Assembly: GCF_016097555.1 (NCBI RefSeq)
Contig: NC_054704.1
Span: forward strand, 49,964,437 to 50,028,436
DNA: 64,000 nt
DNA from: Gigantopelta aegis
Lineage: Eukaryota; Mollusca; Gastropoda; Neomphalida; Peltospiridae
Direction: 5' to 3'
The notes under the pieces were generated by a model. The model searched no databases. It was not told the DNA's origin and was given only the letters and a program-made list of their open reading frames with translations. Every line of letters begins with the position of its first letter. Within the stretch, counting starts at the first letter, position 1. A program made the translations under genes and the position numbers. Below are positions 8,037 to 57,949 of this stretch, in pieces.

Positions 8037-8045
8037 CTTTAACGC

Positions 8046-13755: not shown

Positions 13756-16473
13756 ATGCACACGTTAACGTTTTCCTCACGTGACTGCTTATTGGAGACA
13801 AAAGACAGTCGATCGCGCACATTGTATCATTTTATTGCACTGATGAACAGCATGCTAGAAATGGATTCTGGTGATGATTTGTTTTTGACCCAGCATTACT
13901 TCAAAAATGAAAATGTTTCGTTAAATGACATATGCACTGACTCCGATTTTGAAGATCTTTTAAAAGTAAAAGGTGATTTTGATATCGAATTAACTAATAC
14001 TAATGATTCGGATGAAGAACTTTTGAAAGCCACGAAAGAAATATTAAATGATGACCAAACTAATTCTGTACACGCCAATAGTAATGATTCCGATGAAGAA
14101 CTTTTGAAAGCCACGCAACAAATAGAGAACAATATTGCCAATGGGCGTTTCGGCAAACCATTAACTGAAAAAGAGTATTACAATTTAGAAAACTCGGGTA
14201 AAAACAAAAACCCCGAAAAGAAGGGTCAGTGAGCGGTTAGAATTTTTGACTCGTGGCATCGTGAAATGCGGGGTGTGTGTTCCGATTTTGGAAAAAGTCT
14301 TCTGAATCTGCCCGTTACGGATTTGAATAGAGAGCTATGTTTTTTTGTAACAGAAATTAGAAACCAAAAAGGCAAAGAATATCATGGTAACACTATTAGT
14401 GAAATACTCATGTCACTACAGCGCTTTTTGAGACAAAATGGCAGGGATGTCAACTAAGTATCTCCCGGTATTTGATAAAATCTCCTTTCACCTGTGCGGG
14501 AGACAATTTCTCCTGTTAAATGACATTTTTGTAAGCATATAAAAAAATCGATCCTCTTTTGTCAAAATATCATACGGGAAGTAACTCTGCCTTTTTTTCT
14601 CATTCGGAAAATGTCGACTACTTTCGGTTTCTGAGAATGTAACAGGCCGAATTGTCCCGACTGTTTAACCTTTGCCGAAGTGAGAATTGTAGGATAGCCT
14701 ATTTATATTGTTAAAAAAAGCACATGGAGTTTATAAAATGACGTGTTATTATGTTTGTTGTCATCGTAATGGCTACGAAGCGTGTTCCCGCTAATTCAAC
14801 AGGCTGTGTATTGACATTCAGTGTTGCCATATAAAAAAAACTATCCAATTTAGTTCTAATAACACCTCTGAATTGTAAAATGTCTTCCCACTGGATTACA
14901 TAATGCAACTATGACAAATCTGAACTGCCAGACTCCCGAGTTGACAGCGATATACACAATGCATGTTAAAATCACATGTCACAGCAAGACAACGAAAAGA
15001 TCAATTAGCTGTATAAACATACTTGTGTCAGTTAATTTTGTATGTTTGTGCAGTAAAATGTTGGTTATAAGGGTACACTTCAAGAAATTATTTTTGTACA
15101 ATTAAAAAAATGTTGTGTTTGACATTGACATAAAGTTACTCACGGAAATGGGTATAATTCCTGTATATTTCACACGATGTCCGTAATGAGGTTTTACTTA
15201 TCATTAATGAAAATTCAATGTTTATTGCATCATTATAATGATTTCAAATAAGTACCACGCCACCGTTCCTCATTATAGTAAAAAACTGAATATTAATTTT
15301 TAAGATTTATATAAATTTGTCTTTGGTACTTAGGTACACTAACCACAAATGATAATGTAACGCAACCTGTAAGGCTGTAAGTGTAATACCGTAAATGTAC
15401 TAATTAATTAATTTGTTTCTTGTTCATGTTCTTAACATTTTTGGATAAAATATTTGGGGTTTTTTAAAATATGTATTAAATCATAATAATATTTAAACTT
15501 TAAAAATAAAAAATAAAATGGTTAATTAATTATTATTATTATTTTTTTTTTTTGCAAAGATCTAAGGTTAACAAGTATATATGACATTATATAGTATTCA
15601 TATAACCTATTGTAATAATGTTGTTTTTAAATCTTGCGATTTTGGGTTAAATTGTGTGAATTTAAAAAAATCTCCTGCTTTTTGACAAAATCTCCTGCTT
15701 TTTCAACACACACCTCCTGCTTTCTCTTGACTAAAGGTTGATAGGTCTGGTGACTCAACTTCAATAGTGATTTCGAATTCAGTGGTTTACGAAATATTTA
15801 CAAGGTTTATGGTACTGTTCTGTTCCCGTTGGGCGACACCTTCTATCAGGAGTTGTCAGGCGGCTCTGTGAGAATGCCGGATTCAATGGGTTCTACACCA
15901 ATCACTCCCTTCGTGCCACGACGGCCACCCGGTTGTATGAATGTGGCATTGATGAGCAACTGATAGCTGAACGGACTGGTCATAGGTCTTCAGCTATTCG
16001 AGGGTAAGTATCATTGATGTCCTCAGCTAAAGGGCCGTATAACAGTTTTCGGTTGTAATGGAGCCTTTCGGACATTATAATTATAGAACGTACATGTATA
16101 TATCAAGTTAGGAATTTTCTGCTAACTACGCAATTGCAAAATATCAATAATTCAAAGGGTGTCTTGTAAAAAGTAATTTATTCAGGTTTTTTTTTATAGC
16201 ATAGAAGAAAATTACATGTTTCTAATCCTCATTTGCAGGTACAAAAGGACGAGCGACGATTTGCTCAAAATGGTAGATGACGTGGTACAACAAAAGTTTT
16301 TCGCGACCACCAACAGTTTGAAGCCACCCCCTTACAGCACTCCTCTTCGTCAACAGGCCGGTCGATCCAATAATGCAACAGTAGTGTCAACAGATGCATC
16401 CAACGCCGTGCAACAAAGTTGTGTTCAATTCGTGGTTGAGCGTAATGGTACGAAAGTGACATTCAACATGTAA
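13756..16473 (+). pseudogene. Crypton-type tyrosine recombinase gene, decayed
   Basis: Exon 1 starts near ATG 13842 (MNSMLEMDSGDD) or 13756. Its first part is acidic with a repeated NDSDEELLKAT segment, followed by GRFGKPLTEKEYYNLE and, after a TGA at 14230-14232, AVRIFDSWHRE and ELCFFVTEIRNQKG with ILMSLQRFLRQNGRDVN. This is the core-binding region of the Crypton/DUF3504 family. At the TGA the family has a Trp (TGG), so one base change explains the stop. The C-terminal catalytic part resumes at about 15771-16003: FYTNHSLRATTATRLYE (the HxxR pair) and ERTGHRSSAIRG, then a GT-AG intron (16004-16238) and a last exon (16239-16473) supplying the tyrosine in YKRTSDD. The central segment with the first catalytic Arg is absent; 1.3 kb of non-coding DNA lies in its place. 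The recombinase is therefore inactive. Confidence 0.8.
14446..15760. mobile_element. Possible non-autonomous hAT-like insertion
   Basis: Replaces the middle of the Crypton gene. The left end reads cagggatgtcaac and the right end reads gttgataggtctg, loosely inverted and hAT-like. Repeated tctcctgctttttgacaaaa motifs lie near the right end and a ctcccggtatttgataaaat motif near the left. No 8-bp target duplication was found, so the assignment is tentative. No coding content is evident. Confidence 0.35.
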
Positions 16474-16924
16474 ACTGGATAAAAATGCTATTAAAATAAC
16501 ATTTTTGAAATTAAATTTTGTTTGTAATGTTTCGCCTCTTGCTGACCTCATTGAGAGCTGGGCGCCAATAAGTAAAAGTAGGACACCAATACACATAAAA
16601 TATTGGACAATTCTGACACTTATTGGAGTCCAATTTGCACATATTGGTAGTTGTTTCAAGTTTAATATGAATTATAGCAGCAATTCTGCTTTAAATATAC
16701 ACATAAACATCAGTTATTAAAGAACATTATGTAACTCACTAATGAGGTCTTGACACACTTCTCGTGTTGGGGAATCAGTCGACCTGAGCAGAGTACAGCA
16801 CCTCGCTGGCACAACACACAAAACCTGTTGATATGAAGGAGAATTTTCAGTCATTGGACAGCGATGAGGTCAAAGTCAGGTGTCATACACAAAAAAAGAC
16901 TCATGAAAAGTTTAGGGAGATCTA

Positions 16925-17857
16925 ATTATTACCCATATGGTTAAATCTATCTTGGCACATATCCAAGTGATACGTCCCACTAGTGCGCCAGGTGGGACAT
17001 AACACTTCGTGACGTCAACGACTGGCCCATGCACTACAACCTAACAGGAACGTCAACTAGACGAGTTGAGTGATATAAATTAAGATCGATTATGGGTAAT
17101 AAATAGGATATAAAACTCGCTACCATTTCGTATCATGTTTATGTTCCTCATGAAATAATTTTTATTGTCACTCGCTAAAGCTCGTGACAACTAAAAAATT
17201 ATTTCACTTGGGACATAAAAATGATACGAATTGGAAGCTCGTTTAATATCCTATAATTATGTCTTGTTGGCAGTCCATATCAGCTGGCCTTGTATTAAAT
17301 CTTGGCTAATTCAAGTTTGCCTCAGTCAAAAGATGAGACCTTTTTAAAACTTTCATTAAAATTTTTTAAAATTTTAAATTTTAATAATGTTCATATTTTA
17401 ATTTCATGAAATTACTAATGGATCGATTAAAATCAGTTCAACTAAAAATGGAAGAAGATACCTAAAGGGTTCATTGTTCATACTTACAAGAACATTATGA
17501 CCACATGTTTATCAGTGAAACTACCGAGCCAGGACATTATCGTTTTTCTATTTTTGAGAAAGTTTAGAGCTTCAGAATTATAGGATATTAAACGAGCTTC
17601 CATTTTGTATCATGTTTATGTCCCGAATGAAAATTATTTCACGAGGTAGTAGCGAGTTTTATATCCTATTTATTACCCACAATCGATCTTAATTTATATC
17701 ACTCATCTCGTTTCGTTGACTTTTCTGTAAGGTTGTAGTGCGCTAATTGATGACGTCATCATGTGACGTCAAAAGTGTTACGTCCCACTTGGCATTCTAG
17801 TGGGACGTATCACTTTGATATGTACGAAGATATTTATAACATATGGGTAATAATAAG
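16925..17857. mobile_element. Long fold-back element, about 220-bp arms
   Basis: Outer arms 16925-17130 and 17640-17857 are inverted copies: both carry attacccatatgg, gtgatacgtcccactag, and gatcgatt-tgggtaataaat blocks. Inside them a second inverted pair (aggatataaaactcgct and agctcgtttaatatcctat) is nested. No ORF is present. The same element lies inverted in the other arm at 31796-32725. Confidence 0.75.
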
Positions 17858-18010
17858 TAATTTGACCTTGTAAAGATTAGATCTGCTTCTTCATTTGTAT
17901 TATAACTGATGTAATGCTAACAGACTGTGAACGCTAAAGTCGATCTGTTGGTGCATACCGATTCTACAATGACTGATTCCCAACCGATTCCCAACACTAG
18001 TGCTACCTAC

Positions 18011-18126
18011 CAGTGGTGCAGCAGGCCAGTTTCCTCAGTCTGATTCCCCACAGACAGCAACGCACCCCGATTGATGAGGGCCTCCTCCTTTACAGCCAGC
18101 TCTTGTTTAAGTTTCTCGATTATAAG
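18011..18126 (-). pseudogene. Coiled-coil exon copy with 1-nt insertion
   Basis: Inverted copy of the plus-strand exon 31522-31636, with the same acceptor (ttttaag) and donor (gtaggtagca). It is 116 nt against 115 nt because of one extra A in a gaggaaactgg segment, which shifts the reading frame. If the two arms are allelic, this frameshift would be heterozygous. Confidence 0.55.
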
Positions 18127-18289
18127 CTTAAAACAAAACAGTTTTTAGATCTTAAAAAGCAAAACTGCAGGATATCTTCTTGAAAATCTACTCCCCTTTT
18201 ATGAAAAATTTGTCTTAAAACATGAAAAGAAAATTTTAGACGACCCATCAAAGAATATATTTTTAATTAGCTTTTAGTCAGAGATTTAA

Positions 18290-18462
18290 AGTCCTCTCTG
18301 TCGGATTGTGCATATAAAAAATACCTTGCTACTGATGGAAAAATGTAGTGGGTTTCCTCTCTAAGACTATATGTTACAATTACCAAATGTTTAATATCAA
18401 ATAGCTGATGATTAATAAATCAATATCAATGTGTTCTAGTGGTGTAGTTAAACAAAACAAAC
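18290..18462 (+). mobile_element. SINE type A tail, 5' truncated
   Basis: Runs from ggattgtgcatataaaaaat to gtagttaaacaaaacaaact. It has the short tail variant (gatgattaataaatcaatat). Its inverted counterpart is 31184-31365. Confidence 0.75.
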
Positions 18463-18598
18463 TTCCTGATTGGTTAACAATGGTTTTTCTAAGAACTGTT
18501 CTTCATTAAAAAAAAATATATATATATTATTAACTAATTAAACAAATCTATGCATTATGTTTTATCAATGGAACATAAGAACCTATCAATAGTCCTAC

Positions 18599-18628
18599 CT
18601 GTAGCTCTTCAATATTGCCGTTATGTTG
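18599..18628 (-). CDS. 30-nt coiled-coil exon, inverted copy
   Basis: Minus strand: acceptor gttttcttttag, a 30-nt phase-0 exon encoding QHNGNIEELQ, donor gtaggact. Equivalent plus-strand copies are at 29866-29895 and 31022-31052. This copy keeps the 30-nt length. Gene identity is unknown. Confidence 0.45.
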
Positions 18629-18705
18629 CTAAAAGAAAACAACAACCAGTTAAATAATTTACCAACACATTTTTGAGCACAATCAAATTATTATATAGAG
18701 AATAA

Positions 18706-18843
18706 TACATGAGTGTCCGTTAGATACCATTTATCTCACAAGTTGTTTTAAAATGTATCCAACGAGCGAAAACGAGTCCGATATGTTTTTAAACAACGAG
18801 TTGTGAGATAAATGGTATCTAACGGACACGAATATATTATTCT
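18706..18843. repeat. Palindromic hairpin of the R4 family
   Basis: Near-perfect inverted arms of about 45 bp built on gtgtccgttagataccattt and tttatctcaca, with a loop containing aacgagcgaaaacgag. Sister copies lie at 29665-29806, 30822-30952 and 47226-47365. Confidence 0.85.
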
Positions 18844-19439
18844 ATTTCTTACATATCCTCAAAAAAAAAACCTATTTGTTTTAAAAGCAAATTTAACATC
18901 TTTATTGACTAAAAGATATTTACAAGTACAACCCAAGATACGTGGGTTGTGGTCAAAACGATACTAAAACTTGTAAATTCAAGTTAATGTGCATTAATAG
19001 TAAAAAAAAAAAAAAACTTGTTATTTTCTAAATATGCATAAATCCATCGAAACATGATCAATTTGGGGATCTTGTCCAATTTTTCCCAGCAATACAGTTT
19101 TTAAAGTCGTTTGTCGTAACGTTTCCTAGACTAGTTTTTATACTACACGTTAAATCGCATTACCACTTAAGGATCCAGTCAAAATAGTTTTGCAAACGTT
19201 TAGCGAAAAACATGGTCGAATTTCAGCCAGATCGAGCAGAAAAAACCGTTCACTAGACTGCTTTATGCCCCAACTAACCAGATCGGGGAACAGTCAAATA
19301 GTCAGCAGAGTTAGCACAGCTTGCTGTCACTGAACATCGTGATAATTTCCACCTGGCTCGGGCTTCAGACAATATATATATAGTGTGACAAAATATATCT
19401 GGTGTTGGTGTATTCATGTCGAGCGGTGCCACTGTAACT

Positions 19440-19655
19440 TATAAACTCTTTCCCCAATAATTTGTACTCTCTTTATTCTGTATTATTTGTCTCTTTCCTG
19501 TAACCATATATCTTTAATCTATATTTCTTTTCGGTACATTATTACTTCTCTAATCTGTATCTCTTTCCTGCACATTACCTCTCTACAATAATCTATATTT
19601 ACTTCCTGTACTAAATCTCTTTAATCTTTATCTTTTCCTTCCATTATAGAATTAT
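19440..19655 (-). repeat. Purine-rich tandem repeat, left arm copy
   Basis: Reverse complement of 26990-27160; on this strand it reads as pyrimidine-rich units such as tctttcctgtac spaced 33-38 bp. It marks the 3' flank of the Ty3-type pol whose body on this side is lost in the gap. Confidence 0.7.
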
Positions 19656-19661
19656 GATGAA

Positions 19662-19861
19662 NNNNNNNNNNNNNNNNNNNNNNNNNNNNNNNNNNNNNNN
19701 NNNNNNNNNNNNNNNNNNNNNNNNNNNNNNNNNNNNNNNNNNNNNNNNNNNNNNNNNNNNNNNNNNNNNNNNNNNNNNNNNNNNNNNNNNNNNNNNNNNN
19801 NNNNNNNNNNNNNNNNNNNNNNNNNNNNNNNNNNNNNNNNNNNNNNNNNNNNNNNNNNNNN
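19662..19861. other. Scaffold gap, 200 N
   Basis: Exactly 200 N, the same as the second gap, so the size is a placeholder. Sequence on the left ends inside Ty3-type pol in inverted orientation; sequence on the right begins in unrelated DIRS-like material. Confidence 0.99.
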
Positions 19862-20240
19862 GGTCTTGTTCTGTTCAATGTTCTGACGGATGCACTTAGG
19901 TCGTCGCTTGTTATTACTAACACTTCAATACGTGAGGGTTACCTAACACCTGCATCCCTGGTGGCTACGTCTTCCCACCCTGTCAGAACCAGCATGAGAT
20001 GTGGCTACGGCCTCCAGGTCCTTTGTTCTAGGAGCCGCTCCTGCCACTGGTGACGGATGCTACCATTCTGGTTGTTATTACTAACATTACCTGCTTTGGT
20101 TTGTGATGGGCATCCCTGGGAGGAGAGCTTACCAAGGTTGGCCTTATTCTTCAGCCTCTTTCCGGTTTGAGGAGTTATCACAAGCATCTACGGATCTCGG
20201 CACCCACCACCATCTGTTGAATGCTGCCCTTGTTTGAGGA
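19862..20240 (+). mobile_element. Probable 3' end of a DIRS-like element
   Basis: Ends in cccttgtttgaggacaggta, the inverse of the start of the DIRS-like element at 54.17 kb. It contains two similar blocks around ttgttattactaac and catccctgg. No recombinase motif could be read, so the coding assignment is open. Confidence 0.45.
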
Positions 20241-20560
20241 CAGGTAATGTGAAAAGAAATTGAGAAAACTTGGAGTGTTTTCTCTATTATAGATACATTA
20301 CCTGTCCTCAAGATTTCATCCCGCCCGGGCCTCCCCGCTTCCTGTTCTCTGTGCGATGCGCTCAGGGAAAAAGAAGGACGTTACAGGCATGTGACCAGAA
20401 CTAGAGAGCAGTATGCAGTAGAAGAATTTAGGCCATCCCATTGGCTGTTGGGATGTTCGGACCAGACCACTTGCGTGGGGGGGGGGGGGGGGGGGGGAGG
20501 TGCCCTTGTTTGAGGACAGGTAATGTATCTATAAAAGAAAACACTCCAAGTTTTCTCCAT
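20219..20560 (-). mobile_element. DIRS-like terminal repeat, fold-back arrangement
   Basis: 20325-20515 is the reverse complement of the element start at 54165-54330, including the long homopolymer (21 G at 20477-20497). 20255-20302 and 20506-20560 are inverted copies of each other (aacttggagtgttttct, then tctataatag variants and acattacctgtcctcaa). Two element ends therefore meet here. Confidence 0.6.
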
Positions 20561-20735
20561 TTTATATGTACCATCCCACAGACAGGATAGCATATACCAC
20601 GGCCTTTGATATAGCAATCGTGATACACTGGCTGAAACATGAAATAGCCCAATGGGCCCACCGATGGGATCGACCCCAGCCCGACCGTGCATTAGGCGAG
20701 CGCTTTACCACTAGGCAATGTCCCGCCCAGAGCCT
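20548..20735 (-). mobile_element. SINE type A, head half only
   Basis: Minus strand, from the head (gggcgggacattgcctagtg) to accatcccaca in plus sense. The tail half is missing: the SINE breaks at the ttttatatg-caccatccc point, where DIRS-type sequence begins. Confidence 0.75.
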
Positions 20736-20849
20736 TCCAAGAAGGCATCCTGCAATTTGTTGGTTCTTGCTCTGGGAAGTTTAAATCTCTGACTAAAAAA
20801 AATAATAATAAAAAATTCTACTTAAAATCTAAAACTGTTTTGTTTTAAG

Positions 20850-20961
20850 ACTCACATTGACCATCTCCAAACCGAACTTCGAGCTGCAAGAGAGGCCCTG
20901 TTGGCAGCGTCTGTTGGCATTCAAACGGAGGCATGCTGCTGCAGCACTACCGGCATCATTG
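20850..20961 (+). CDS. 112-nt coiled-coil exon of an unidentified gene
   Basis: Acceptor ttgttttaag and donor gtaggtagc bracket a phase 0 to phase 1 open exon, THIDHLQTELRAAREAL and then an SVGIQTEACCC segment. It aligns without gaps over the first 51 nt to the exon at 31522 (LIIEKLKQELAVKEEAL), and both are followed by the same intron start. Heptad spacing suggests a coiled coil. The gene is not recognised. A duplicated-exon structure explains the similarity. Confidence 0.55.
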
Positions 20962-21012
20962 GTAGGTAGCACTAATGTTGGGAATCGGTTGGAATTCCAT
21001 CATTGATCATCG

Positions 21013-21013
<1 letters not shown>

Positions 21014-21092
<79 letters not shown>
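21014..21092. repeat. AT microsatellite
   Basis: About 39 AT units in the intron following the exon at 20850. Confidence 0.97.
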
Positions 21093-21097
<5 letters not shown>

Positions 21098-21293
21098 AAG
21101 ATAAAAATATGAACAGTACATGCATTAAATTTTTAAATTTTTACATTTTCTATGAAGGTTTTTAAAATGTTTCACCTTTTGATTGAGATAAATTTAATTA
21201 GCAAATACTTTCTTTTCTTTCTTTTTTGACATTACAAACATGAGATGAATTGTAAAGCCACAGCATTTCTATTTTGCTTGTTCTTTTGTCAGA

Positions 21294-21390
21294 CATTGCC
21301 TTTTCAGACAAAGCTTGTCCGTAGGACAATGCCCAAGAGAGTGCTAAGAGAGTGCTGAGAGAGTGCTTGAAGAAAAACTACATGAGATTG
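21294..21390 (+). pseudogene. Possible exon broken by an 11-bp triplication
   Basis: Acceptor ttttgtcag or the inner ttttcag at 21300-21306, donor gtaagtac. The 11-mer agagagtgctN occurs three times in a row; two extra copies (22 nt) put a stop in frame. The 3' part reads RVLEEKLHEI, a coiled-coil-like end compatible with the neighbouring exons. Weak evidence: no homologous copy is seen elsewhere in the window. Confidence 0.3.
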
Positions 21391-22025
21391 TAAGTACTTA
21401 AAGCTGCAGTCACTGGAATATTTTTACTATTTGAGTAATTTGAATAGATTATCCAGTTCTGTTTAGTACATATAAGGCCCACCACACTGCTATGGTTTCA
21501 CGCTTGCTTATCTACATTATCTAGGTCAACTACAAAGGCAGTGGGCATCAGGTCAGGTCAGGTCAGGTCATAGTTTTTTTTACGTGCACAATCAGAGCAA
21601 GCTGTTGTAGCGCATGCCTGTCATGGTCACAAGAAAGGGGTTGGGGTGGGTGCAAGAGAGCACCAGCAGCCTGACCAAGGTCGGTAGAGGGCGGGGCTAG
21701 TTTTGGTGCTATTGAATATGAAAGTCCCGTAGGATTAAACCAAAAAGAAAGGTTGAGCAGTTTTAATGAAAGAATTTGGGTGCATTTTGAATGGTCCATG
21801 AAAAAAACAAAGGGGAGCTACATATAATTTTTGAATTTAGTATATCGAGAGTAGCTCATTATTGGAACCGAGACTGCTTATGGCTGTTGATGGCCAGCTA
21901 TTCGATTCACTTAGCAGAACACTAATCCAAATGTGATATCAAACAAATTTGACCGTCTTGATTGATTGGACATCTGATAACTCCAAAACATATCCACAGA
22001 AGTATGATATATAATTTTATAAAAA
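21391..22025. other. Non-coding DNA, nothing recognised
   Basis: Contains a short caggt-type pentamer run near 21547-21570 and otherwise no recognised feature. Confidence 0.4.
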
Positions 22026-22035
22026 ATGTTTTACA

Positions 22036-22152
22036 TACGTTGTTTTCGCTTCCTATTTACTGCACACGTTTATGTTGCGCAAGAATATATACCTCGCTGA
22101 TGTTCTTGCGCAAGATAAACGAGTGCAATAAATAGGAAGCGAAAACAATGTA
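22036..22152. repeat. Palindromic hairpin, about 50-bp arms
   Basis: Arms 22036-22085 and 22102-22152 match at roughly 46 of 50 positions, built on ttgttttcgcttcctattta and ttgcgcaagaa. The loop is short and AT-rich. Unrelated in sequence to the R4 hairpins, but with the same design. Confidence 0.8.
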
Positions 22153-22766
22153 TTATTCTGTATTTATTACATACATACATTTTATTTTTTGGGAAAAACG
22201 TTCATGGATTTACTTAACAGTAAAAATCATAATCTGCAGCAGCCTGGTGTAATGTTTCAAATATGATGTGACATAATTTGTAAATCATATATGATGTCAA
22301 TAACTAAAAGGCGTTAACTCTAGTACAAATTAAAAGGAAGGATAACTGTTCTGAAAAGTTTAATAATTCCTAAAATAATACATCTGTTTATAGCTTTACG
22401 TAACCCAAGTGAACCACTAATCAAATATTTAAATACATTAGTCTTTAAATTTATTTGGTACAACAGTACTGAAAAGTTAGCATGCAGTTTAATAACTCAA
22501 AACTATAAAGATGGCGGAATTAAAATGATAAACGTAACAAATTACATTATAGCACTTTAAAATGCATGGGTGCGACGAATGATTATTAATAACCCAAAGT
22601 GGACTAATCTCTTTAAATCTATTATAGGTATATATCTATATTCAATTTAATTATACATGGCGACTATTTCATTACTTTTAAACTTGAACAAATACTAAAT
22701 ACATTTTGGAGAGATACATTACACAGCTGGTTACAGATACAACAAAAACGACAACCACGTAATATA

Positions 22767-22848
22767 CTGTAAAACGGGTAATATTCGCGGGAGTAAATTT
22801 TCGCGACCAGTCAATTATAGCCATTTCACGGTTTGTAATTTTCGCGGC

Positions 22849-22890
<42 letters not shown>

Positions 22891-23846
22891 AAAAAAATTC
22901 TCAAGTCAGTAAAAAAGAAGGAAATAAAGAAGGAAAAAGAACAAATGCAATACTACTGCATACTTTTTAATCCACAAAGATAAAAGAAGTGTGACTGACT
23001 TAGCCTAATAGTATTTGACCGATAACCAAGAGGTACAATCACATGCATTTTATCTCGAGATGGCCACTTGGCTCATGCACAATGAATGACTGTAATCTCC
23101 CATAAGTGTTCTAATTAATAAATTTCAGTTGTTGAAAACGTCTCATCTATTTTGTTTGTGTACACACATTCTCAAAAGTACCAACGGATTAAGCTTACGT
23201 CAAGACATCGGAATGAGTCGGTCATTTCGATTGGTCAGATAAAACTAGTAGGATGTACTAATTTCTAAACGTTTACTTACGAATTAATATACAGAATTGA
23301 CTTAGAAAATGTTTGTTAAAAAAATATTTTAGCTTCAATCTTCACAAAAGTTCTGTAACGTTAATATGGCAGGTTCAATTCTACATTGGTTAAAAAAAAA
23401 AAAAATGCTAGTTAACCTGAAACTGTCGGTTTATCCGACCCCTTAATGTGTTCAACGATTGAAGATGTTCAGTGTACACAGGCCGCAAATGATGCAGTTG
23501 ATAAGTTAAACTCTGTAACAAATCGGAAAAGAGTGGCTTGTGAGTGGCTTTCGTGAAGCTGGTCTTCTAGTAGTAGTAGTACTGATTTGGAAATGTTTTT
23601 TTTTTTTATTATTATTTTTTTTTTTTAATTCTCACAGCTATTGATTGGATACTTACCAGTGTTGATTTTGATTTTTGAAACAAATTTGTGAGTAAATGAA
23701 ATGTGTTAACCTTATTTTTGTTTGTGTTTTTTTTTTTTTAAAGATGATACTAGTATTAATATTCGCGTGAGTTTAATTTTTGCGGTCAAATTAAAATCGC
23801 GAAAAACGCAAAAATTACACCCACGCGAATATTACCCGTTTTACAG
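22767..23846. mobile_element. 1080-bp TIR element with TA duplication
   Basis: Termini ctgtaaaacgggtaatattc and its inverse at the right, extending into degenerate gcg-rich inner repeats. TA dinucleotides at 22765-22766 and 23847-23848 flank it. Removing it with one TA keeps the L1-like similarity continuous. No transposase is visible, so it is non-autonomous; TA target choice points to the Tc1/mariner or pogo group. It contains a 37-bp poly(T) at 22850-22886. Confidence 0.8.
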
Positions 23847-24372
23847 TAGATGACATTTTAGGTATTAATATTTGGTACAACAGTAAATTATGTATAGATC
23901 CAAAAAAAAAATTCTATAAAAAATATCTTAAAACTGGTATCATATTTATAGGTGATCTATTGAATGAACAAGGAGACTTCCTAAAATACGAGGATTTCAT
24001 AGCAAAATATCACATACCTACAATTTTTTTTGCAATATGCTTCATTAATAAATGCTACTAAATCTTTTATACATAACTTAAACAATTTAATGGATGATAT
24101 TTTTACATCAACTAAGCATGTTGTTAAACGACAAAAGTGGCAGCAAACATATATACGATATACTAAATACTAGAATAATAAAACCAAAAGCACAAATAAA
24201 ATATGCAAATGAGGGGTTTATATATAATATACAGGAAAGGGAAACGTTTTATACTCTCCCTTTCTATTCCATAGCGTGAAAGATACATCTTTAGCATGGT
24301 TTCAGTATAGAATTTTGCACAGAATCCTGGCGACTAACAAATTCTTACATATGATCCATTATATTGATTCTA

Positions 24373-24697
24373 AAGAAAGAATGAAATGTTTTATTTAACG
24401 ATGCACTCAACACATTTTATTTACGGTTATATGGCGTCAGACATATGGTTAAGGACCACACAGATATTGAGAGGAAACCCGTTGTCGCCACTTCATGGGC
24501 TACTCTTTTCGATTAGCAGCAAGGGATCTTTTATATGCACCATCCCACAGACAGGATAGCACATACCACAGCCTTTGATATACCAGTTGTGGTGCACTGG
24601 CTAGAGCGAAAAATAGCCCAGTGGGCCCACTGACGGGGATTGATCTCAAACCGACAGTGCATCAAGCAAGCACTTTACCACTGGGCTACGTCTCGCC
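24373..24697 (-). mobile_element. SINE type A, complete, 13-bp TSD
   Basis: Minus strand, with head ggcgagacgtagcccagtgg, the ccgtaaataaaatg tail segment and a short ttctttctt end. The direct repeat tatattgattcta flanks it at 24360-24372 and 24698-24710. It lies within the L1-like remnant. Confidence 0.92.
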
Positions 24698-24933
24698 TAT
24701 ATTGATTCTAATGCTTGTAGCTTTTATAGCAATTATTGAGAAACACTAAAACATTTATTTTTTAAGTGTGACAAAGTTCATAATTTATGGTAAGAAGTAA
24801 AATCATGGATTCTATGTAAAACAGGAAACGAAATCAATTTCAGCAAAGATATTGCCATATTTGGTATAACTAATAACAAAAACAGTAGCTTCATAGATTG
24901 GTTAACTATAAATATCAAGTATTATATCTACAG

Positions 24934-25817
24934 TATGCGTCACTAGAAGAGAACTACTAGCTATAGTATTAGCTATAAAACACTTTCACCATTACCTGTA
25001 TGGAGTGAAGTTTTTAATCCGCACAGATCATGGATCTCTCCGATGGCTGCTTAATTTTAAAATTCCAGAAGGACAAATAGTTCGCTGGCTTGAGGTCCTC
25101 GGAACATATAATTTTGAGATACAGCACCGATTAGGACGGCAACATGGAAATGCGGATGGCCTCTCACGACGACCATGCTTAGAATGTAAACATTGTGAAC
25201 GTCAGGAAGATAAAGAAAGAAAATAATTTTCTAACCATACTAAATGTACATATGAAGAAACAGAGTTGAAAGATAATAGAGTGATATTTGCTATTGCCAG
25301 ACAAAATGGAAAAGGAATGAAAAGAACCGCAGAAAGACTGAAAATAGTTCCAGATGGGAATTGGTCAGTATCGCGCACTAGTCCGGATGGTGTGGATGAG
25401 ACTGAAATGAAGTCACCAAGTAAAATAAGTGCACATTCCCCTTTTAAAAATATTACCTCAGGTAAATTCTGGGATGAACACCTCAGATGCGCAGCTGGTC
25501 CGTTTTCGTCCGAGAGAAGAATCCCGGGCGATTCGCTCAGAGGCCTATCCTTAAGCATAGTACGTTCTGGGAATGATAGACAAGGAACGTCCTCGCTTGT
25601 GCTTGGGACGAAAGACCAGGAGCAACACCTGGCACAACCTCTAGACTATCTTCCATCATGGAAAACAATTCGTAAATGGTTTCAAGCTGAAACCAAAGAG
25701 GAGATAAGAAATGGGCAAGCAGCAGATGTCGATCAAAAATCGAACACAGACTACTTGTCAATAAAAAGGACAGGAAAGAAGTTTCAAAAGAAAGATCAAA
25801 GATTAGAAGATATTTAG
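24934..25817 (+). pseudogene. Ty3-type pol: RNase H remnant and linker
   Basis: Begins abruptly with RRELLAIVLAIKHFHHYL, followed by IRTDHGSLRWLLNFK and GRQHGNADGLSRRPC, the second half of a Ty3/gypsy RNase H domain. A TAA at 25224 is followed in the same frame by a 180-residue charged linker without a recognised domain. RT and the first part of RNase H are missing at the junction with the L1-like sequence. Confidence 0.8.
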
Positions 25818-25819
25818 AT

Positions 25820-27005
25820 CAGTGGGATAAGTTGCGAATGTACGATGGTATTTTATACAGACAACAACCTAGTGGAACTGGCCATTCTACGAAGTTGCAA
25901 CTTTTATTACCAAAAGTATGGAAGACCAAGGTCTTAGAAGGGTTACATAACAACCCAGTGGCTGGTCACTTAGGAGTGGATCAGACAGCAGCACGTATCA
26001 AAGAGCACTTCTACTGGCCAGGTATGGATGAAGATATCAAGAAATTGTGCAATGAGTGTTTAATTTGTCAAGCTCGAAAGAATCCACAGAAAATAGCAAG
26101 AGGGAACTTGAAGCAACAGTTAATTAAAGCTCCACTTGAAAAAGTTGCTATGGACATAGTAGGTTCATTTCCTCGAAACTAAAAATGGATTCAAATATGT
26201 ATTGGTAATCGAAGATTACTTCACGAAATGGACATGCGTGTATTCTATGAGAAATATAGAAGCCACAACCATAGCGAAGATTTTGTTGGAACAGGTTATT
26301 TGTTACTGGGGAATCCGACAACAAATACACACAGGCCAAGGAAAACAGTTTGAGTCTGAACTTTTCCAAAACCTTTGTAATATTATGAAAATAGTGAACA
26401 GTCGAATGACGGCCGATCTAGAAAGTGATGGGTTGGTTGAAATATTCAACAGAACATTGGAAGATATGCTTTCAAAAATTATTTCACCTCAGCAGACAGA
26501 TTGGGACCTAAAACTTCCCTTGGTAATGATGGCATACAGATCTTCCGTCCATACAAGTACAGGTTTAACACCGAATATGATGATGCTAGGTAGAGAACTG
26601 CCATTACCAACTGATTTGGTTTATGGTCCTTTGCCAGATGAAGAAGACATATTTCTTGATCCAAAAGATTATGTAGATGCCCTACAAAATTGCATGTGAC
26701 AAGGTAATGAATGTGCTAGAAAGAAACAATTGGTGTCTAATAACAGACAAAAGAAAATATACAGCCGCAAAGTGCATCATAATACATGTACATACAAAGT
26801 CGGTGATGCCATTTGGTTGGTAAATAAAAAGAAACAGAAAGGTATATCACCAAAACTTCAGTCGAGATGGACTGGACCATACCTGATAACAGAGAGAATA
26901 ACAGATCTTTTATATAAAATAAAGAAACGTTCCAAGCATGCTAGTAGAGTGGTTCATCATAATAATATGAAGCTCTATAATGTGAAGGAAAGAGATAAAG
27001 ATTAA
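25820..27005 (+). pseudogene. Ty3-type integrase, mutated
   Basis: The zinc-binding module is present (GLHNNPVAGHLG, YWPGMDEDIKK, CNECLICQARK: the HHCC set). The catalytic core reads EDYFTKW (first Asp), then IHTGQGKQF where the family has Asp before QG, so the second catalytic residue is replaced by Gly; VEIFNRTLEDML keeps the Glu. The C-terminal module has the SRWTGPYLI motif (GPY/F). Frameshift near 25800 and 26185 and a stop at 26697-26699 further disable it. In life it would join element cDNA to host DNA. The last 50 bp before the end recur inverted at the first gap. Confidence 0.85.
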
Positions 27006-27160
27006 AGAGATTTAGTACAGGAAAGAAATATAGATTATTGTAGAGAGGTAATGTGCAGGAAAGAGATACAGATTAGAGAAGTAATGTACCGGAAAGAAAT
27101 ATAGATTAAAGATATATGGTACAGGAAAGAGACAAATAATACAGAATAAAGAGAGTACAA
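26990..27160 (+). repeat. Purine-rich tandem repeat, 33-38 bp units
   Basis: Five degenerate units, each starting ggaaagag or ggaaagaa and containing ata-agatta. The first unit includes the stop codon of the pol remnant, so it is element 3' sequence or a local expansion. Confidence 0.75.
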
Positions 27161-27847
27161 ATATTGGGGAAAGAGTTTATAAGTTACAGTGGCCACCGCT
27201 CGACATGAATCACACAACACCAGATATATTTTGTCACACTATATATATATTGTCTGAAGCCCGAGCCAGGTGGAATTATCACGCTGTTCAGTGACAGCAA
27301 GCTGTGCTAACTCTGCTGACTATTTGACTGTTCCCCAATGTGGTTATTTGGTGCATAAAGCAGTCTAGTGAACGGTTTTTCTGCTCGATCTGGCTGAACT
27401 TCGACCATGTTTTTCGCTAAACGTTTGCAAACTATTTTGACTGGATCCTTAAGTGGTAATGCGATTTAACGTGTAGTATAAAAACTAGTCTAGGAAACGT
27501 TACGACAAACGACTTTAAAAACTGTATTGCTGGAAAAAATTGGACAAGATCCCCAAATTGATCATGTTTCGATGGATTTATGCATATTTAGAAAATAACA
27601 TTTGGATTTTTTTTACTATTAATGCATTAACTTGAATTTAACAAGTTTTATCGTTTTGACCACAACCATGTATCTTGGCCGAACAATTTAATAGAAATGC
27701 CACATCACATTACTACTTCTGATTTGCCACTGACCATTTTTAGTATATAAATTGTTCCTGTCATGTTTGAACATATCCTATTTATTTTGAACATTATGTA
27801 TTTACCAAATTTCCAACAGAACATATGAACCACTACATGAAGATTAG

Positions 27848-29118
27848 TGTGACGGTACATGCTCTTAATTTCTTTTCGCCTGTGGCGATATTAATTGTTT
27901 TAGAGGGTCGTGTGTACTTGTTACGTAATACTTCTGCGCGACGGTCCTCGATCGGTACGCCTAATACACACCCTTAGCCAGGTGCGGAGGCCATGTGGCG
28001 AGTAGTTACGTAAAACCTCTGCGAGTGCGGTTTTTACAACCGTGATTTGGCGACGATGGCGTCAGTAAGTCTGACGATCAGAGAGAAATAATACCGCTTG
28101 CACGCGGTGGAAATATCAGATGATAGGGGGAGGTACCGCCTTGTACCCCCAGGCGAATTTCTGATTTATAATAAATAGCGAGTTTTTTTAGAGTTATGAG
28201 GAGAACGAACTAGGAAGGCTCCAGGGGATCACGGACGTCGTCCACTGAACGATCTATATTAGTTCAGACGGGACTTTGGTAATTATATATTTTCTGCTCT
28301 GTGTATAACCTTGATGTGATTGATGTGACTTTTAAATATTTTAATACTGTATTATACCAATATTCTTTAGACAGTGTCTTCGGTCATCTGACGAAGTAAA
28401 TCGTAGACTTTTTGTTCTAACATTATACGAGTATTTGGTAATATAAAGCTTAGCCAGTCATCCTAGAAGACCTAGGTAAACTGTAGGTTATTGTCTTTAT
28501 TGTGATAGGTACCAGTATTAATTCTGTGTTACAAGGTTACTGAATGAGTAGTTAGGGTTAATTAAAAAATTAACCCGTTAGGAATAGAGCTGTAATTCCT
28601 CTATTAATTAAGTTCCCCTGGAAGCGTCTCTAAATTATCACACGTTACTGAACGAGTAGTAAGGGTTAATTAAAAATTAACCAGTTAGGAATGGTGTTGT
28701 ATTTCCCTTATTAATTAACTTCTCCTGGAAACGGTTCTCAATTATCACACGTGTGGGTGTTGTGTCACGGTGAAGTGATTCGCATATTGTGTAACTAGAC
28801 ACCTAGAGATTAACTAATTAAGTGATCAGTTCTGGGTTGTTATTATTGTTGTTATTAATTAACTACTACGGCTGTACATTTGTCAGCGTAGGTTAATACA
28901 GATTCCAAAGTGTATTGTGTTTTGTTGTGTTTCTAGTGAACTTAACGTGCTATATTACATATACTTTATATAAGATCGTATCTCTGATCATACCTAGAGA
29001 CGAGACATACTAGGGTTTAACAGCCTGTTACAGAGAGATCTAATAGATATACAGTTAGGAGAGATATTTTGATAATCGTGTTTTATTCAGTTACGGGAAT
29101 TATAGAATCCCCGTGACA
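27848..29118. mobile_element. Solo LTR, 1271 bp, 5-bp TSD
   Basis: Starts tgtgacggtac and ends ccccgtgaca, with tgtgacgg and ccgtgaca giving the short inverted LTR ends. The direct repeat attag flanks it at 27843-27847 and 29119-29123. No internal retroelement region lies next to it, so it is a solo LTR left by recombination. Orientation and family are not known. It is within the part found only in the right inverted arm. Confidence 0.85.
28536..28750. repeat. 108-bp duplication inside the solo LTR
   Basis: Two units at 28536 and 28644, each starting gttactgaa and ending attatcacac, both with the inverted motif ggttaattaaaaa-ttaacc. They differ by about 10-15 percent. Confidence 0.85.
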
Positions 29119-29211
29119 ATTAGTATAGTGATTTTTACTGTGCCGTGCGCCTTTATTTGTCGGTCTGGCTACCCATCCATTCATTTGTTTCTTCATTTAT
29201 GACGCCACAAA

Positions 29212-29338
29212 TATGTTGGTAAATTAGCTAGTTGATTGTTGTGGTCAAATGTGTTCGTAAGTTAATTAACTGGCTGTTGTTCTCAAATGTGTTGGTAAAT
29301 TAGTCGGTTGTTGTGTTCAAATGTGTTAGTAAATTAGG
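29212..29338 (+). repeat. Intronic 38-bp minisatellite
   Basis: Units of about 38 bp with gttggtaaattag and gttgttgtgttcaaatgtgt motifs. The same unit forms the acceptor-proximal intron sequence before exons 29866, 31022 and 53478. Confidence 0.7.
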
Positions 29339-29385
29339 TTTCTTCTACACCCGTTGGTGAGAAAATCATGTGTTATTTTTTATAA

Positions 29386-29815
29386 CACATAGTTGTTTAC
29401 ACACGTACGTGTCTTAATAATTTCAAGACATACGACTGTCTGCTCCTAGGTGATGACCAGGTCACCAGTGCCATACGTCTAATAAGAAAGCACGGTAGAA
29501 GCTGATTACACTGTGAATTATATTATAGTTAACCTGGCAATCATGGGTCTGTAACACGTATGGTAGCTACAAGTACAAAGGGTTGTAAATATTTTTCAGT
29601 CGAGAAAGAGTTTAAAATTTCCTTAAAACCTGTTTATTTGAGGATATGTATAAAATAGAATAATACATTCGTGTCCGCTAGATACAATTTATCTTACAAC
29701 TCGTTGTTTAAAAACATCAGACCGGTTTTGCTCGTTAGATACATTTTAAAACAACTTGTCAAATAAATGGTATCTAACGGCCACTCAGGTATTATCCTCT
29801 ATATCATAATTGCTT
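29386..29815 (+). repeat. R4 repeat with hairpin, copy 1
   Basis: Contains gacatacgactgtctgctcc, gttaacctggcaatcatggg and, at 29665-29806, the palindromic hairpin. Tandem partner of 30540-30970. Confidence 0.8.
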
Positions 29816-29865
29816 GTGCTCAAATGTGTTTGTAAATTATTTAACTGGTTGTTGTTTTCTTTTAG

Positions 29866-29895
29866 CAATATGACGGCAATGTTCAAGAGCTACAG
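29866..29895 (+). CDS. 30-nt coiled-coil exon
   Basis: Acceptor gttgttttcttttag, a phase-0 exon encoding QYDGNVQELQ, donor gtaggactactgg. The exon and the first 50 nt of the following intron match the copies at 31022 and 18599 (inverted), and more distantly the exon at 53478. Part of an unidentified coiled-coil gene. Confidence 0.5.
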
Positions 29896-30159
29896 GTAGG
29901 ACTACTGGTAGGTTCTTATGTTCCATTGATAAAACATAATGCATAGATTTGTTTATGTTTATGTAAATACAGTACAATACTTTATTACCTCTTACATTGT
30001 CAGAGCACACAATATATACATAAAATAAATTGTATAAAACAGACAATACACTCACAACATACACATAAAATAGGTGCAAAGACATAAGTTAATTGAATTT
30101 TTTTTTTAAATTAAGAACAGTTCTTAAAAAAAACGTTTTTAACCAATCAGGAAGTTTGT

Positions 30160-30472
30160 TTTGTTTACCGACACCACTAAGGCACATTGATTAATTAATC
30201 ATCAGCTATTGAATGTCAAACCTTTGGTAATTCTGACTTGTAGTCATCAAAAGAAACTCACTACATTTTTCTTAATGTAGCCAGAGATAATTTATATGCA
30301 CTTTCCCACAGACTGGAAAGCACATACCATGGCCTTTGCTAAGTTGATGAGCACTGGTTGGAACGAGAAAACCCCCAATCAGTAGAATGGATCCACCGAG
30401 GTGGTTCAATCCTGCAATGCCCAAGCACCTCAAGCGAGCACTCAATTGACTGAGCTAAATCCCACCCCACCA
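30160..30472 (-). mobile_element. SINE type A, diverged
   Basis: Minus strand, from a tail at gtttgttttgtttaccgaca (plus sense) to the head near gctaaatcccacccc. It is more diverged than the other copies and has a rearranged B-box region. Confidence 0.75.
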
Positions 30473-30539
30473 ATCAGGAATCGGTTTTCAAATGCATATG
30501 GCAGAGTTATCAACATTCACAAATTGTAATGTAACAATG

Positions 30540-30970
30540 TCACATAGTTGTTACACACTTACGTGTCTGAACAATTTCAAGACATACGACTGTCTGCTCC
30601 TAGGTGATGACCAGGTCACCAATGCCATACGTCTAATTAGAAAGCACGGTAGAAGTTGATTACACTGTGAATTATACTATAGTTAACCTGGCAATCATGT
30701 GTCTGTAACGCGTATGGTAGCTACAAGTACAAAGGGTTGTAAATATCTTTTAGTCAATAAAGATGTTAAAATTTGCTTAAAACCTGTTTTTTGAGGATAT
30801 GTAAGAAATAGAATAATATATTCGTGTCCGTTAGATACCATTTATCTCACAACTCGTTGTTTAAAAACATATCGGACTCGTTTTCGCTCGTTGGATACAT
30901 TTTAAAACAACTTGTGAGATAAATGGTATCTAACGGACACTCATGTATTATTCTCTATATAATAATTGAT
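30540..30970 (+). repeat. R4 repeat with hairpin, copy 2
   Basis: Same order as copy 1, with the hairpin at 30822-30952. Its inner part continues into the segment shared with the left inverted arm. Confidence 0.8.
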
Positions 30971-31021
30971 TGTGCTCAAATATGTTGGTAAATTATTTAA
31001 CTGGTTGTTGTTTTCTTTTAG

Positions 31022-31052
31022 CGAAAATAACGGCAATATTGAAGAGCTACAG
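31022..31052 (+). pseudogene. Short coiled-coil exon copy, 31 nt
   Basis: Acceptor ttttcttttag, donor gtaggattac. It is one nucleotide longer than the 30-nt copies at 29866 and 18599, which breaks the phase; counted back from the donor the frame reads ENNGNIEELQ. The 1-nt change is close to the acceptor, so a shifted acceptor is an alternative. Confidence 0.45.
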
Positions 31053-31183
31053 GTAGGATTACTGATAAGTTCTTATGTTCCATTGATAAAACATAATGCA
31101 TAGATTTGTTTAATTAGTTAATAAAAATAAAAAAATAATTTAATGAAGAACAGTTCTTAAAAAACCCATTGTTAACCAATCAG

Positions 31184-31365
31184 GAAGTTTGTTTTGTTTA
31201 ATGACACCACTAGATCACATTGATACTGATTTATTAATCATCGGCTATTGGATATTAAACATTTGGTAATTGTAACATATAGTCTTAGAGAGGAAACCCA
31301 CTACATTTTTCCATCAGTAGCAAGGTATTTTTTATATGCACAATCCGACAGAGAGGACTTTAAAT
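31184..31365 (-). mobile_element. SINE type A tail, 5' truncated (right arm)
   Basis: Inverted counterpart of 18290-18462, with the same truncation point. Confidence 0.75.
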
Positions 31366-31521
31366 CTCTGACTAAAAGCTAATTAAAATATATTCTTTGA
31401 TGGGTCGTCTAAAATTTTCTTTTCATGTTTTAAGACAAATTTTTCATAAAAGGGGAGTAGATTTTCAAGAAGATATCCTGCAGTTTTGCTTTTTAAGATC
31501 TAAAAACTGTTTTGTTTTAAG

Positions 31522-31636
31522 CTTATAATTGAGAAACTTAAACAAGAGCTGGCTGTAAAGGAGGAGGCCCTCATCAATCGGGGTGCGTTGCTGTCTGTGG
31601 GGAATCAGACTGAGGAACTGGCCTGCTGCACCACTG
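31522..31636 (+). CDS. 115-nt coiled-coil exon
   Basis: Acceptor ttttgttttaag, donor gtaggtagcac. It encodes LIIEKLKQELAVKEEAL, then a segment ending SVGNQTEELACCTT, phase 0 to phase 1. The paralogous exon is 20850-20961. The heptad pattern (I, L, L, V) suggests a coiled coil. The inverted left-arm copy (18011-18126) has one extra base. Gene identity unknown. Confidence 0.55.
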
Positions 31637-31795
31637 GTAGGTAGCACTAGTGTTGGGAATCGGTTGGGAATCAGTCATTGTAGAATCGGTATGCACCAAC
31701 AGATCGACTTTAGCGTTCACAGTCTGTTAGCATTACATCAGTTATAATTACAAATGAAGAAGCAGATCTAATCTTTACAAGGTCAAATTACTTAT

Positions 31796-32725
31796 TATTA
31801 CCCATATGGTTATAAATATCTTCGTACATATCAAAGTGATACGTCCCACTAGAATGCCAAGTGGGACGTAACACTTTTGACGTCACATGATGACGTCATC
31901 AATTAGCGCACTACAACCTTACAGAAAAGTCAACGAAACGAGATGAGTGATATAAAATTAAGATCGATTGTGGGTAATAAATAGGATATAAAACTCGCTA
32001 CTACCTCGTGAAATAATTTTCATTCGGGACATAAACATGATACGAAATGGAAGCTCGTTTAATATCCTATAATTCTGAAGCTCTAAACTTTCTCAAAAAT
32101 AGAAAAACGATAATGTCCTGGCTCGGTAGTTTCACTGATAAACGTGTGGTCATAATGTTCTTGTAAGTATGAACAATGAACCCTTTAGGTATCTTCTTCC
32201 ATTTTTAGTTAAACTGATTTTAATCAATCCATTAGTAATTTCATGAAATTAAAATATGAACATTATTAAAATTTAAAATTTTAAAATTTTTTAATGAAAG
32301 TTTTAAAAAGGTCTCATCTTTTGACTGAGGCAAACTTGAATTAGCCAAGATTTAATACAAGGCCAGCTGAATGACTGCCAACAAGACATAATTATAGGAT
32401 ATTAAACGAGCTTCCAATTCGTATCATTTTTATGTCCCAAGTGAAATAATTTTTAGTTGTCACGAGCTTTAGCGAGTGACAATAAAAATTATTTCATGAG
32501 GAACATAAACATGATACGAAATGGTAGCGAGTTTTATATCCTATTTATTACCCATAATCGATCTTAATTTATATCACTCAACTCGTCTAGTTGACGTTCC
32601 TGTTAGGTTGTAGTGCATGGGCCAGTCGTTGACGTCACGAAGTGTTATGTCCCACCTGGCGCACTAGTGGGACGTATCACTTGGATATGTGCCAAGATAG
32701 ATTTAACCATATGGGTAATAATTAG
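31796..32725. mobile_element. Long fold-back element, right arm copy
   Basis: Inverted counterpart of 16925-17857 with the same nested arms; the two copies differ by scattered substitutions and a few short indels. Confidence 0.75.
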
Positions 32726-33172
32726 ATCTCCCTAAACTTTTCATGAGTCTTTTTTGTGTATGACACCTGACTTTGACCTCATCGCTGTCCAATGACTGAA
32801 AATTCTCCTTCATATCAACAGGTTTTGTGTGTTGTGCCAGCGAGGTGCTGTACTCTGCTCAGGTCGACTGATTCCCCAACACGAGAAGTGTGTCAAGACC
32901 TCATTAGTGAGTTACATAATGTTCTTTAATAACTGATGTTTATGTGTATATTTAAAGCAGAATTGCTGCTATAATTCATATTAAACTTGAAACAACTACC
33001 AATATGTGCAAATTGGACTCCAATAAGTGTCAGAATCGTCCAATATTTTATGTGTATTGGTGTCCTACTTTTACTTATTGGCGCCCAGCTCTCAATGAGG
33101 TCAGCAAGAGGCGAAACATTACAAACAAAATTTAATTTCAAAAATGTTATTTTAATAGCATTTTTATCCAGT

Positions 33173-35384
33173 TTACATGTTGAATGTCACTTTCGTACCA
33201 TTACGCTCAACCACGAATTGAACACAACTTTGTTGCACGGCGTTGGATGCATCTGTTGACACTACTGTTGCATTATTGGATCGACCGGCCTGTTGACGAA
33301 GAGGAGTGCTGTAAGGGGGTGGCTTCAAACTGTTGGTGGTCGCGAAAACTTTTTGTTGTACCACGTCATCTACCATTTTGAGCAAATCGTCGCTCGTCCT
33401 TTTGTACCTGCAAATGAGGATTAGAAACATGTAATTTTCTTCTATGCTATAAAAAAAACCCTGAATAAATTACTTTTTACAAGACACCCTTTGAATTATT
33501 GATATTTTGCAATTGCGTAGTTAGCAGAAAATTCCTAACTTGATATATACATGTACGTTCTATAATTATAATGTCCGAAAGGCTCCATTACAACCGAAAA
33601 CTGTTATACGGCCCTTTAGCTGAGGACATCAATGATACTTACCCTCGAATAGCTGAAGACCTATGACCAGTCCGTTCAGCTATCAGTTGCTCATCAATGC
33701 CACATTCATACAACCGGGTGGCCGTCGTGGCACGAAGGGAGTGATTGGTGTAGAACCCATTGAATCCGGCATTCTCACAGAGCCGCCTGACAACTCCTGA
33801 TAGAAGGTGTCGCCCAACGGGAACAGAACAGTACCATAAACCTTGTAAATATTTCGTAAACCACTGAATTCGAAATCACTATTGAAGTTGAGTCACCAGA
33901 CCTATCAACCTTTAGTCAAAGAAAGCAGGAGGTGTGTGTTGAAAAAGCAGGAGATTTTGTCAAAAAGCAGGAGATTTTTTAAATTCACACAATTTAACCC
34001 AAAATCGCAAGATTTAAAAACAACATTATTACAATAGGTTATATGAATACTATATAATGTCATATATACTTGTTAACCTTAGATCTTTGCAAAAAAAAAA
34101 AAAAAATTAAATAATTAATTAACCATTTTATTTTTTATTTTTAAAGTTTAAATATTATTATGATTTAATACATATTTTAAAAAACCCCAAATATTTTATC
34201 CAAAAATGTTAAGAACATGAACAAGAAACAAATTAATTAATTAGTACATTTACGGTATTACACTTACAGCCTTACAGGTTGCGTTACATTATCATTTGTG
34301 GTTAGTGTACCTAAGTACCAAAGACAAATTTATATAAATCTTAAAAATTAATATTCAGTTTTTACTATAATGAGGAACGGTGGCGTGGTACTTATTTGAA
34401 ATCATTATAATGATGCAATAAACATTGAATTTTCATTAATGATAAGTAAAACCTCATTACGGACATCGTGTGAAATATACAGGAATTATACCCATTTCCG
34501 TGAGTAACTTTATGTCAATGTCAAACACAACATTTTTTAATTGTACAAAAATAATTTCTTGAAGTGTACCCTTATAACCAACATTTTACTGCACAAACAT
34601 ACAAAATTAACTGACACAAGTATGTTTATACAGCTAATTGATCTTTTCGTTGTCTTGCTGTGACATGTGATTTTAACATGCATTGTGTATATCGCTGTCA
34701 ACTCGGGAGTCTGGCAGTTCAGATTTGTCATAGTTGCATTATGTAATCCAGTGGGAAGACATTTTACAATTCAGAGGTGTTATTAGAACTAAATTGGATA
34801 GTTTTTTTTATATGGCAACACTGAATGTCAATACACAGCCTGTTGAATTAGCGGGAACACGCTTCGTAGCCATTACGATGACAACAAACATAATAACACG
34901 TCATTTTATAAACTCCATGTGCTTTTTTTAACAATATAAATAGGCTATCCTACAATTCTCACTTCGGCAAAGGTTAAACAGTCGGGACAATTCGGCCTGT
35001 TACATTCTCAGAAACCGAAAGTAGTCGACATTTTCCGAATGAGAAAAAAAGGCAGAGTTACTTCCCGTATGATATTTTGACAAAAGAGGATCGATTTTTT
35101 ATATGCTTACAAAAATGTCATTTAACAGGAGAAATTGTCTCCCGCACAGGTGAAAGGAGATTTTATCAAATACCGGGAGATACTTAGTTGACATCCCTGC
35201 CATTTTGTCTCAAAAAGCGCTGTAGTGACATGAGTATTTCACGAATAGTGTTACCATGATATTCTTTGCCTTTTTGGTTTCTAATTTCTGTTACAAAAAA
35301 ACATAGCTCTCTATTCAAATCCGTAACGGGCAGATTCAGAAGACTTTTTCCAAAATCGGAACACACACCCCCCAAAATCTTAAC
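33173..35384 (-). pseudogene. Crypton-type recombinase, 5'-truncated copy
   Basis: Right-arm copy: last exon 33173-33407 (YKRTSDDLLKMVDD), intron 33408-33642, catalytic exon from 33643 to about 33875 (HSLRATTATRLYE, RTGHRSSAIRG), and the core-binding part near 35184-35384. It lacks the acidic N-terminal part because the inverted repeat ends inside the gene. Differences from the left copy are few (for example Ser to Arg in TISEILM, and Phe to Val in QQKFFATT). The same central loss is present, so the damage preceded the duplication. Confidence 0.8.
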
Positions 35385-35524
35385 TGCAACATTTAACAAA
35401 AAAAAAACAATTCACTAGCCGTTGGGCATGGCAATAGTAGTTAATTACTAGCCCAACATTGAATATCACTAGCCATGAAAGTGGGGCTACCATAATCTAG
35501 AAGCCATGAATGGTAATGAAAAGT

Positions 35525-57947: not shown

Positions 57948-57949
57948 GG

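Follow-up and report, generated by a model that had tools for sequence, protein, structure and literature searches.

A near-identical inverted repeat at a scaffold gap of the Gigantopelta aegis assembly, probably one locus assembled twice

Two near-identical stretches of DNA in opposite orientation lie on either side of a scaffold gap in the Gigantopelta aegis assembly, and the question that they raise is whether the sequence exists twice in the genome or only in its assembly. We analyzed the window that holds both arms of this inverted repeat, that is, the whole stretch of 64,000 nucleotides at C6:49964437-50028436 (guanine-plus-cytosine content 38.0%), within the 1.149-Gb assembly of 5216 contigs. 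With a probability of roughly 0.6, we favor the hypothesis that the arms are one genomic locus that was assembled twice at a fork, probably as two haplotypes, and that they represent a false duplication located where a contig ends.

As a feature of the assembled sequence, the inverted repeat is real. A BLAST self-comparison of the window pairs 14270-18925 with the reverse complement of 35371-30737 (98.5% identity, 4662 columns) and 18933-19650 with that of 27678-26974 (94.9%, 723 columns), and alignment extends the left arm to 19661, its final 11 bases being the reverse complement of 26953-26963. The longest exact run shared by the arms is 568 bases; in 50 block-shuffled controls it never exceeded 17. 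These results confirm what the original prediction for this stretch had claimed of near-identical inverted copies (14270-19661 and 26953-35371), of a left arm that stops directly at a 200-N gap (its final base is 19661, the gap 19662-19861), and of about 3 kb present only in the right arm (27679-30736). Five open reading frames (ORFs) in or touching an arm were scanned against Pfam; four match transposon domains and one matches nothing. Within each arm there is also an inverted repeat, imperfect and roughly 200 bases in length (16922-17854; 83-84%), which resembles a foldback element or a miniature inverted-repeat transposable element.

The arms sit in separate contigs. The left arm terminates contig A (111 kb), the right arm belongs to contig B (39 kb), and no single contig carries both; the order and orientation of the arms therefore depend on scaffolding, and the term inverted is a statement on scaffolding only. 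When 100 kb on each side of the window were surveyed, a third 200-N gap was found at -91674 to -91475 in window coordinates, and 5000 N (64001-69000), unlike the 200-N gaps elsewhere, follow straight after the window end. Contig B ends on both sides in retroelement sequence that we take, from its structure, to be DIRS-like: at the left (19862-20562) a 3' end with pieces like inverted terminal repeats and a complementary region starts at the gap, and at the right (54163-58800) a 5' part with reverse transcriptase and RNase H runs into the next gap. Contig C, downstream, starts without DIRS-like sequence. A circular or tandem contig B, which its two ends might suggest, is not needed, as two separate copies of one family suffice to account for DIRS-like sequence at both. 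A second inverted pair lies in contig C, outside the window (87780-89352 versus 160272-158721 in window coordinates; 94.4%, 1585 columns).

The outer edge of the left arm falls within a remnant of a Crypton-like transposon (table 1). The exons of the left remnant match QRICH1 (PF25561, 9.4e-11) and, as the tyrosine recombinase domain, Phage_integrase (PF00589, 2.9e-8), and the right copy matches QRICH1 (7.7e-11) on 35187-35411. The element is multi-copy with a shared 5' end, being present in at least eight places besides the arms, and its 5' end at 13606 is common to five of the seven family places compared. Family copies align to 14455, resume at 15800, and end near 16196 where they are not cut by the fetched piece; in place of the intervening part, 14456-15799 holds other sequence, mostly a dispersed repeat (14461-15750). 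Both arms show this same replacement, and they therefore derive from a single rearranged copy. The Crypton continues unbroken through 14270 in contig A, whereas in contig B it stops at 35371, against a dispersed repeat (35373-35510). The latter has at least 47 other matches, confined to query bases 94-245 and hence beginning no earlier than 35373. Its local copies extend further outward in all three cases inspected; thus, the junction in contig B cuts both the Crypton and the repeat, and the suspicion that a transposon had inserted there, its end left intact at 35373, was dropped on the same ground. The junction at 35372 is non-homologous. This repeat includes, at 35425-35508, a unit some 84-87 bases long, which certain copies elsewhere carry in tandem (e.g., on C11).

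Differences between the arms are rich in indels and cluster toward the gap. One global alignment yields 42 substitutions, of which 22 stand isolated, together with 43 indels (A is the longer at 29, B at 14), and a MAFFT alignment of the same pieces yields 78 substitutions and 30 indels; the counts vary with the aligner, and the clustering is seen in both. In the global alignment, 3 isolated substitutions precede 17420 and 19 follow it, and none of 2000 random placements was as extreme (these were scanned in 50-base steps, the real data in 10-base steps). Polarity could be assigned at four sites of the dispersed repeat within the arms, one further site and the cluster 15535-15541 being given no side; three of the four are homopolymer bases private to A, at which every family copy compared (six, six, and five, respectively) sides with B. 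In the Crypton part, 14398 is likewise private to A, all six family copies siding with B, and 16187 is given no side. With an internal repeat copy as outgroup, B is supported by 17 differing columns of 18539-18925 and A by 7, and 2 fit neither; in 18297-18516 the corresponding numbers are 15, 4, and 13, inflated by unequal piece ends. In these counts long indels amount to many columns. The end of A looks like error-rich sequence, yet part of the divergence is real.

The 3.06-kb difference, which the original prediction had read as extra sequence of the right arm, probably reflects a deletion from the left arm. The right arm holds a direct repeat (29386-29955 vs. 30541-31112, 91.6%), one copy of which is cut by the outer edge of the extra stretch (30737) and is only partly present in the left arm; for this reason, a deletion is simpler than an insertion in the right arm. 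Insertion of a transposon was rejected for that reason and because no target-site duplication was seen by eye in the alignment. The original prediction had also described a Ty3-type pol as complete on the right side, which proved incorrect: its RNase H begins mid-domain (24912-25223, corresponding to profile positions 48-105 of 105), its integrase pieces sit in other frames than the RNase H, and four additional ORFs scanned between 22324 and 25814 yielded no domain. The right arm includes only the final 17 codons of this pol.

We searched the whole assembly for further copies of the arms and their flanks, each search scoring the best 40 candidates, so that counts of repeats are lower bounds. 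A query from the outer part of the left arm (14270-15270) has at least 40 matches, of which the two arms span the whole query and the other 38 begin at query base 191 or later, in the dispersed repeat. The query 26700-27700 has at least 70; among the matches listed, 27230-27678 is covered by two alone, contig B itself and the left arm, while the remaining 68 reach no further than query base 530. Thus, a third copy of the non-repetitive arm sequence was not found among the matches listed for these two arm queries. The left flank (13747-14460) has at least 16 matches, which fall at 10 places. One is the complete left copy, one is the right arm, which holds only query bases 521-714, and eight lie elsewhere. 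The best full-length match among these eight is 93% identical, shorter pieces reach 97%, and one 64-base piece is 100% identical; we read them as an old transposon family and not as an allele. Two flank queries from contig B, 20740-22840 (at least 56 matches) and 44600-46340 (at least 75), each have, among the matches listed, one full copy, the rest being pieces of repeats. A second full near-identical copy of the flanks was therefore not found among the matches listed for the three flank queries. The resulting pattern is a fork, with a common arm and differing outer flanks, which could be obtained from structurally variant haplotypes or from a true duplication.

The published description of the assembly (PMC7895826) gives a size of 1.15 Gb, 15 pseudo-chromosomes, and an average GC of 37.22%. 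The pipeline described there comprised PacBio subreads, Canu correction, wtdbg2 with the options "-e 2 --rescue-low-cov-edges", polishing with Racon and Pilon, and scaffolding with 3D-DNA in diploid mode; the Hi-C tissue dated from April 2019 and the other snails from January 2015. Words starting with "purge" or "haplo" are absent from the main text of that article. A pipeline of this type may leave haplotypes unmerged.

How could one locus have been assembled twice? We propose that the assembler met a fork, presumably heterozygous, whose outer sides differed (the left flank of A vs. 35372-58800 of B) and whose other side was shared (the arm and 26952-19862). Contig B would represent one branch; contig A would represent the other and overhang the fork by about one read length. 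This overhang measures 5.4 kb, or 8.4 kb counting the deletion, and its length may reflect read length. On the basis of proximity data, contig B would then have been set beside A; its orientation has no support from contiguous sequence and is presumably arbitrary. We favor this reading because of the gap, the separate contigs, the homopolymer bases private to A, and the indel-rich differences that rise toward the end of A; because of the 5.4-kb overhang, the probable pipeline, and the searches with the two arm queries; and because A continues naturally through the Crypton that B breaks. The original prediction had likewise favored an assembly origin at the gap and is partly supported. It had pictured a haplotig placed in reverse orientation beside its allele, and this plain form was rejected, as collinearity ends at the arm in the 264 kb compared. 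A PacBio palindromic chimera was set aside as well, given the differing outer flanks and the 3-kb difference between the arms.

Several observations weigh against a single locus assembled twice. In a megablast self-comparison of 264 kb (the window and 100 kb on each side, matches of at least 400 columns listed), contig A shares with contigs B and C, besides the arms, only four scattered repeat pairs, the longest of 571 columns; with collinearity absent beyond the arms, the haplotypes would therefore have to differ by a large structural variant right there. Two copies of the arm and one copy of the queried flanks are what a true duplication gives directly, and the assembly of a true repeat is likewise expected to leave a contig end within it. 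At 15726 it is B that carries a private change, with all five family copies siding with A, and the idea that the tail of A is pure sequencing error is unsupported, as B carries private changes in the outgroup comparison too. These points lead to the foremost alternative, a real recent segmental duplication, to which we give appreciable weight while considering it clearly the less probable explanation. Under this scenario, a copied segment of 5.4 kb or more was attached to a dispersed repeat by non-homologous joining, 3 kb subsequently disappeared from the left copy, and the assembly broke inside one copy because that copy was a repeat. It accounts for the arm being found twice and the queried flanks once among the matches listed, for the absence of collinearity beyond the arms, and for the clean junction at 35372, which cuts both Crypton and repeat as an end-joining breakpoint would; it has to contend with the gap that separates the copies, with a divergence that is uneven along the arm and error-like at the end of A, and with a relative orientation unsupported by any contig. 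In its most specific form, which we hold still more tentatively, the duplication would be inverted, very recent (three isolated substitutions in the first 3.1 kb), and possibly polymorphic, and would have duplicated a Crypton recombinase fragment together with nested repeats.

Two other explanations fare much worse. If contig B were chimeric at 35372, with 35373-58800 coming from elsewhere, the arm and 26952-19862 would be a plain continuation of contig A, and the Crypton, which crosses the edge undamaged in A but is interrupted in B, would be explained; the published pipeline, moreover, allowed low-coverage edges (PMC7895826). We regard this as improbable, however, since it needs a repeatable chimera and since the queried part of 35373-58800 (44600-46340) has no second home among the matches listed. 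Least credible of all are two independent insertions of one large transposon: the arms are indeed rich in transposon remnants, but their shared outer edge lies inside the Crypton and not at the end of an element, the same internal replacement of the Crypton occurs in both, and the two arm queries gave no third copy of non-repetitive arm sequence among the matches listed. The edge within the Crypton and the common replacement led us to reject this explanation.

Table 1. Coordinates, in the window, of the arms, the gaps, and the elements at their edges
Feature	Position	Strand	Remarks
Left arm	14270-19661	+	End of contig A; outer edge within Crypton remnant, inner edge abuts gap
Right arm	26953-35371	-	Interior of contig B; 3.06 kb longer than left arm
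Scaffold gap A/B, 200 N	19662-19861		Between contig A and contig B
Scaffold gap, 200 N	58801-59000		Ends contig B (19862-58800)
Crypton-like transposon remnant	13606-16197	+	Spans left arm outer edge; PF25561, PF00589, family copies
Crypton remnant, right copy without 5' part	33450-35371	-	PF25561, family matches
Dispersed repeat, truncated at right arm	35373-35510	+	Other assembly matches
Right-arm-only stretch	27679-30736		3.06 kb; probably deleted from left arm
Ty3-type pol fragment, truncated, frame-broken	24912-27005	+	Partial RNase H, integrase; last 17 codons within arm

Two further elements were observed in the window. On the minus strand, 2317-8174 is a long interspersed nuclear element-like sequence with a 1157-aa ORF that contains endonuclease and reverse transcriptase and, upstream, a 665-aa ORF that includes a 33-base tandem repeat near 6144-6358. 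An uninterrupted 353-aa ORF for a Tc1/mariner-like transposase (DDE_3, HTH_Tnp_Tc3_2) occupies 41543-42601.

A duplication or inversion called across a gap of this assembly should be distrusted unless reads support it. Neither a false nor a true duplication would be unusual here, and a true one would be an ordinary segmental duplication rich in transposons. As marks of false duplication, Ko et al. (2022, PMC9516828) list gaps that separate the copies, depth that is haploid or lower, and error k-mers, and such marks are reported as not found for the true duplications of the same study. The arms resemble the heterotype and homotype false duplications described there in being near-identical copies on one scaffold with a gap between them, one copy looking error-rich; they depart from these in the inverted orientation of the copies and in their differing outer flanks, and that class is defined by depth, k-mers (single-copy heterozygous ones for the heterotype, error k-mers for the homotype), and read pairs, whereas the comparison here is of sequence alone. 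With recent segmental duplications as generally known, they share two copies of more than 5 kb at 95-98.5% identity and a non-homologous junction, but here the copies lie across a gap, not in one contig, and their divergence is uneven. Finally, Cryptons have been reported from the mollusc Lottia gigantea (Kojima and Jurka 2011, PMC3212892). Unlike the CryptonA transposons described in that article, the element at the arm edge is a remnant with its middle replaced, and it is likened to them by its tyrosine recombinase domain and its multi-copy occurrence.

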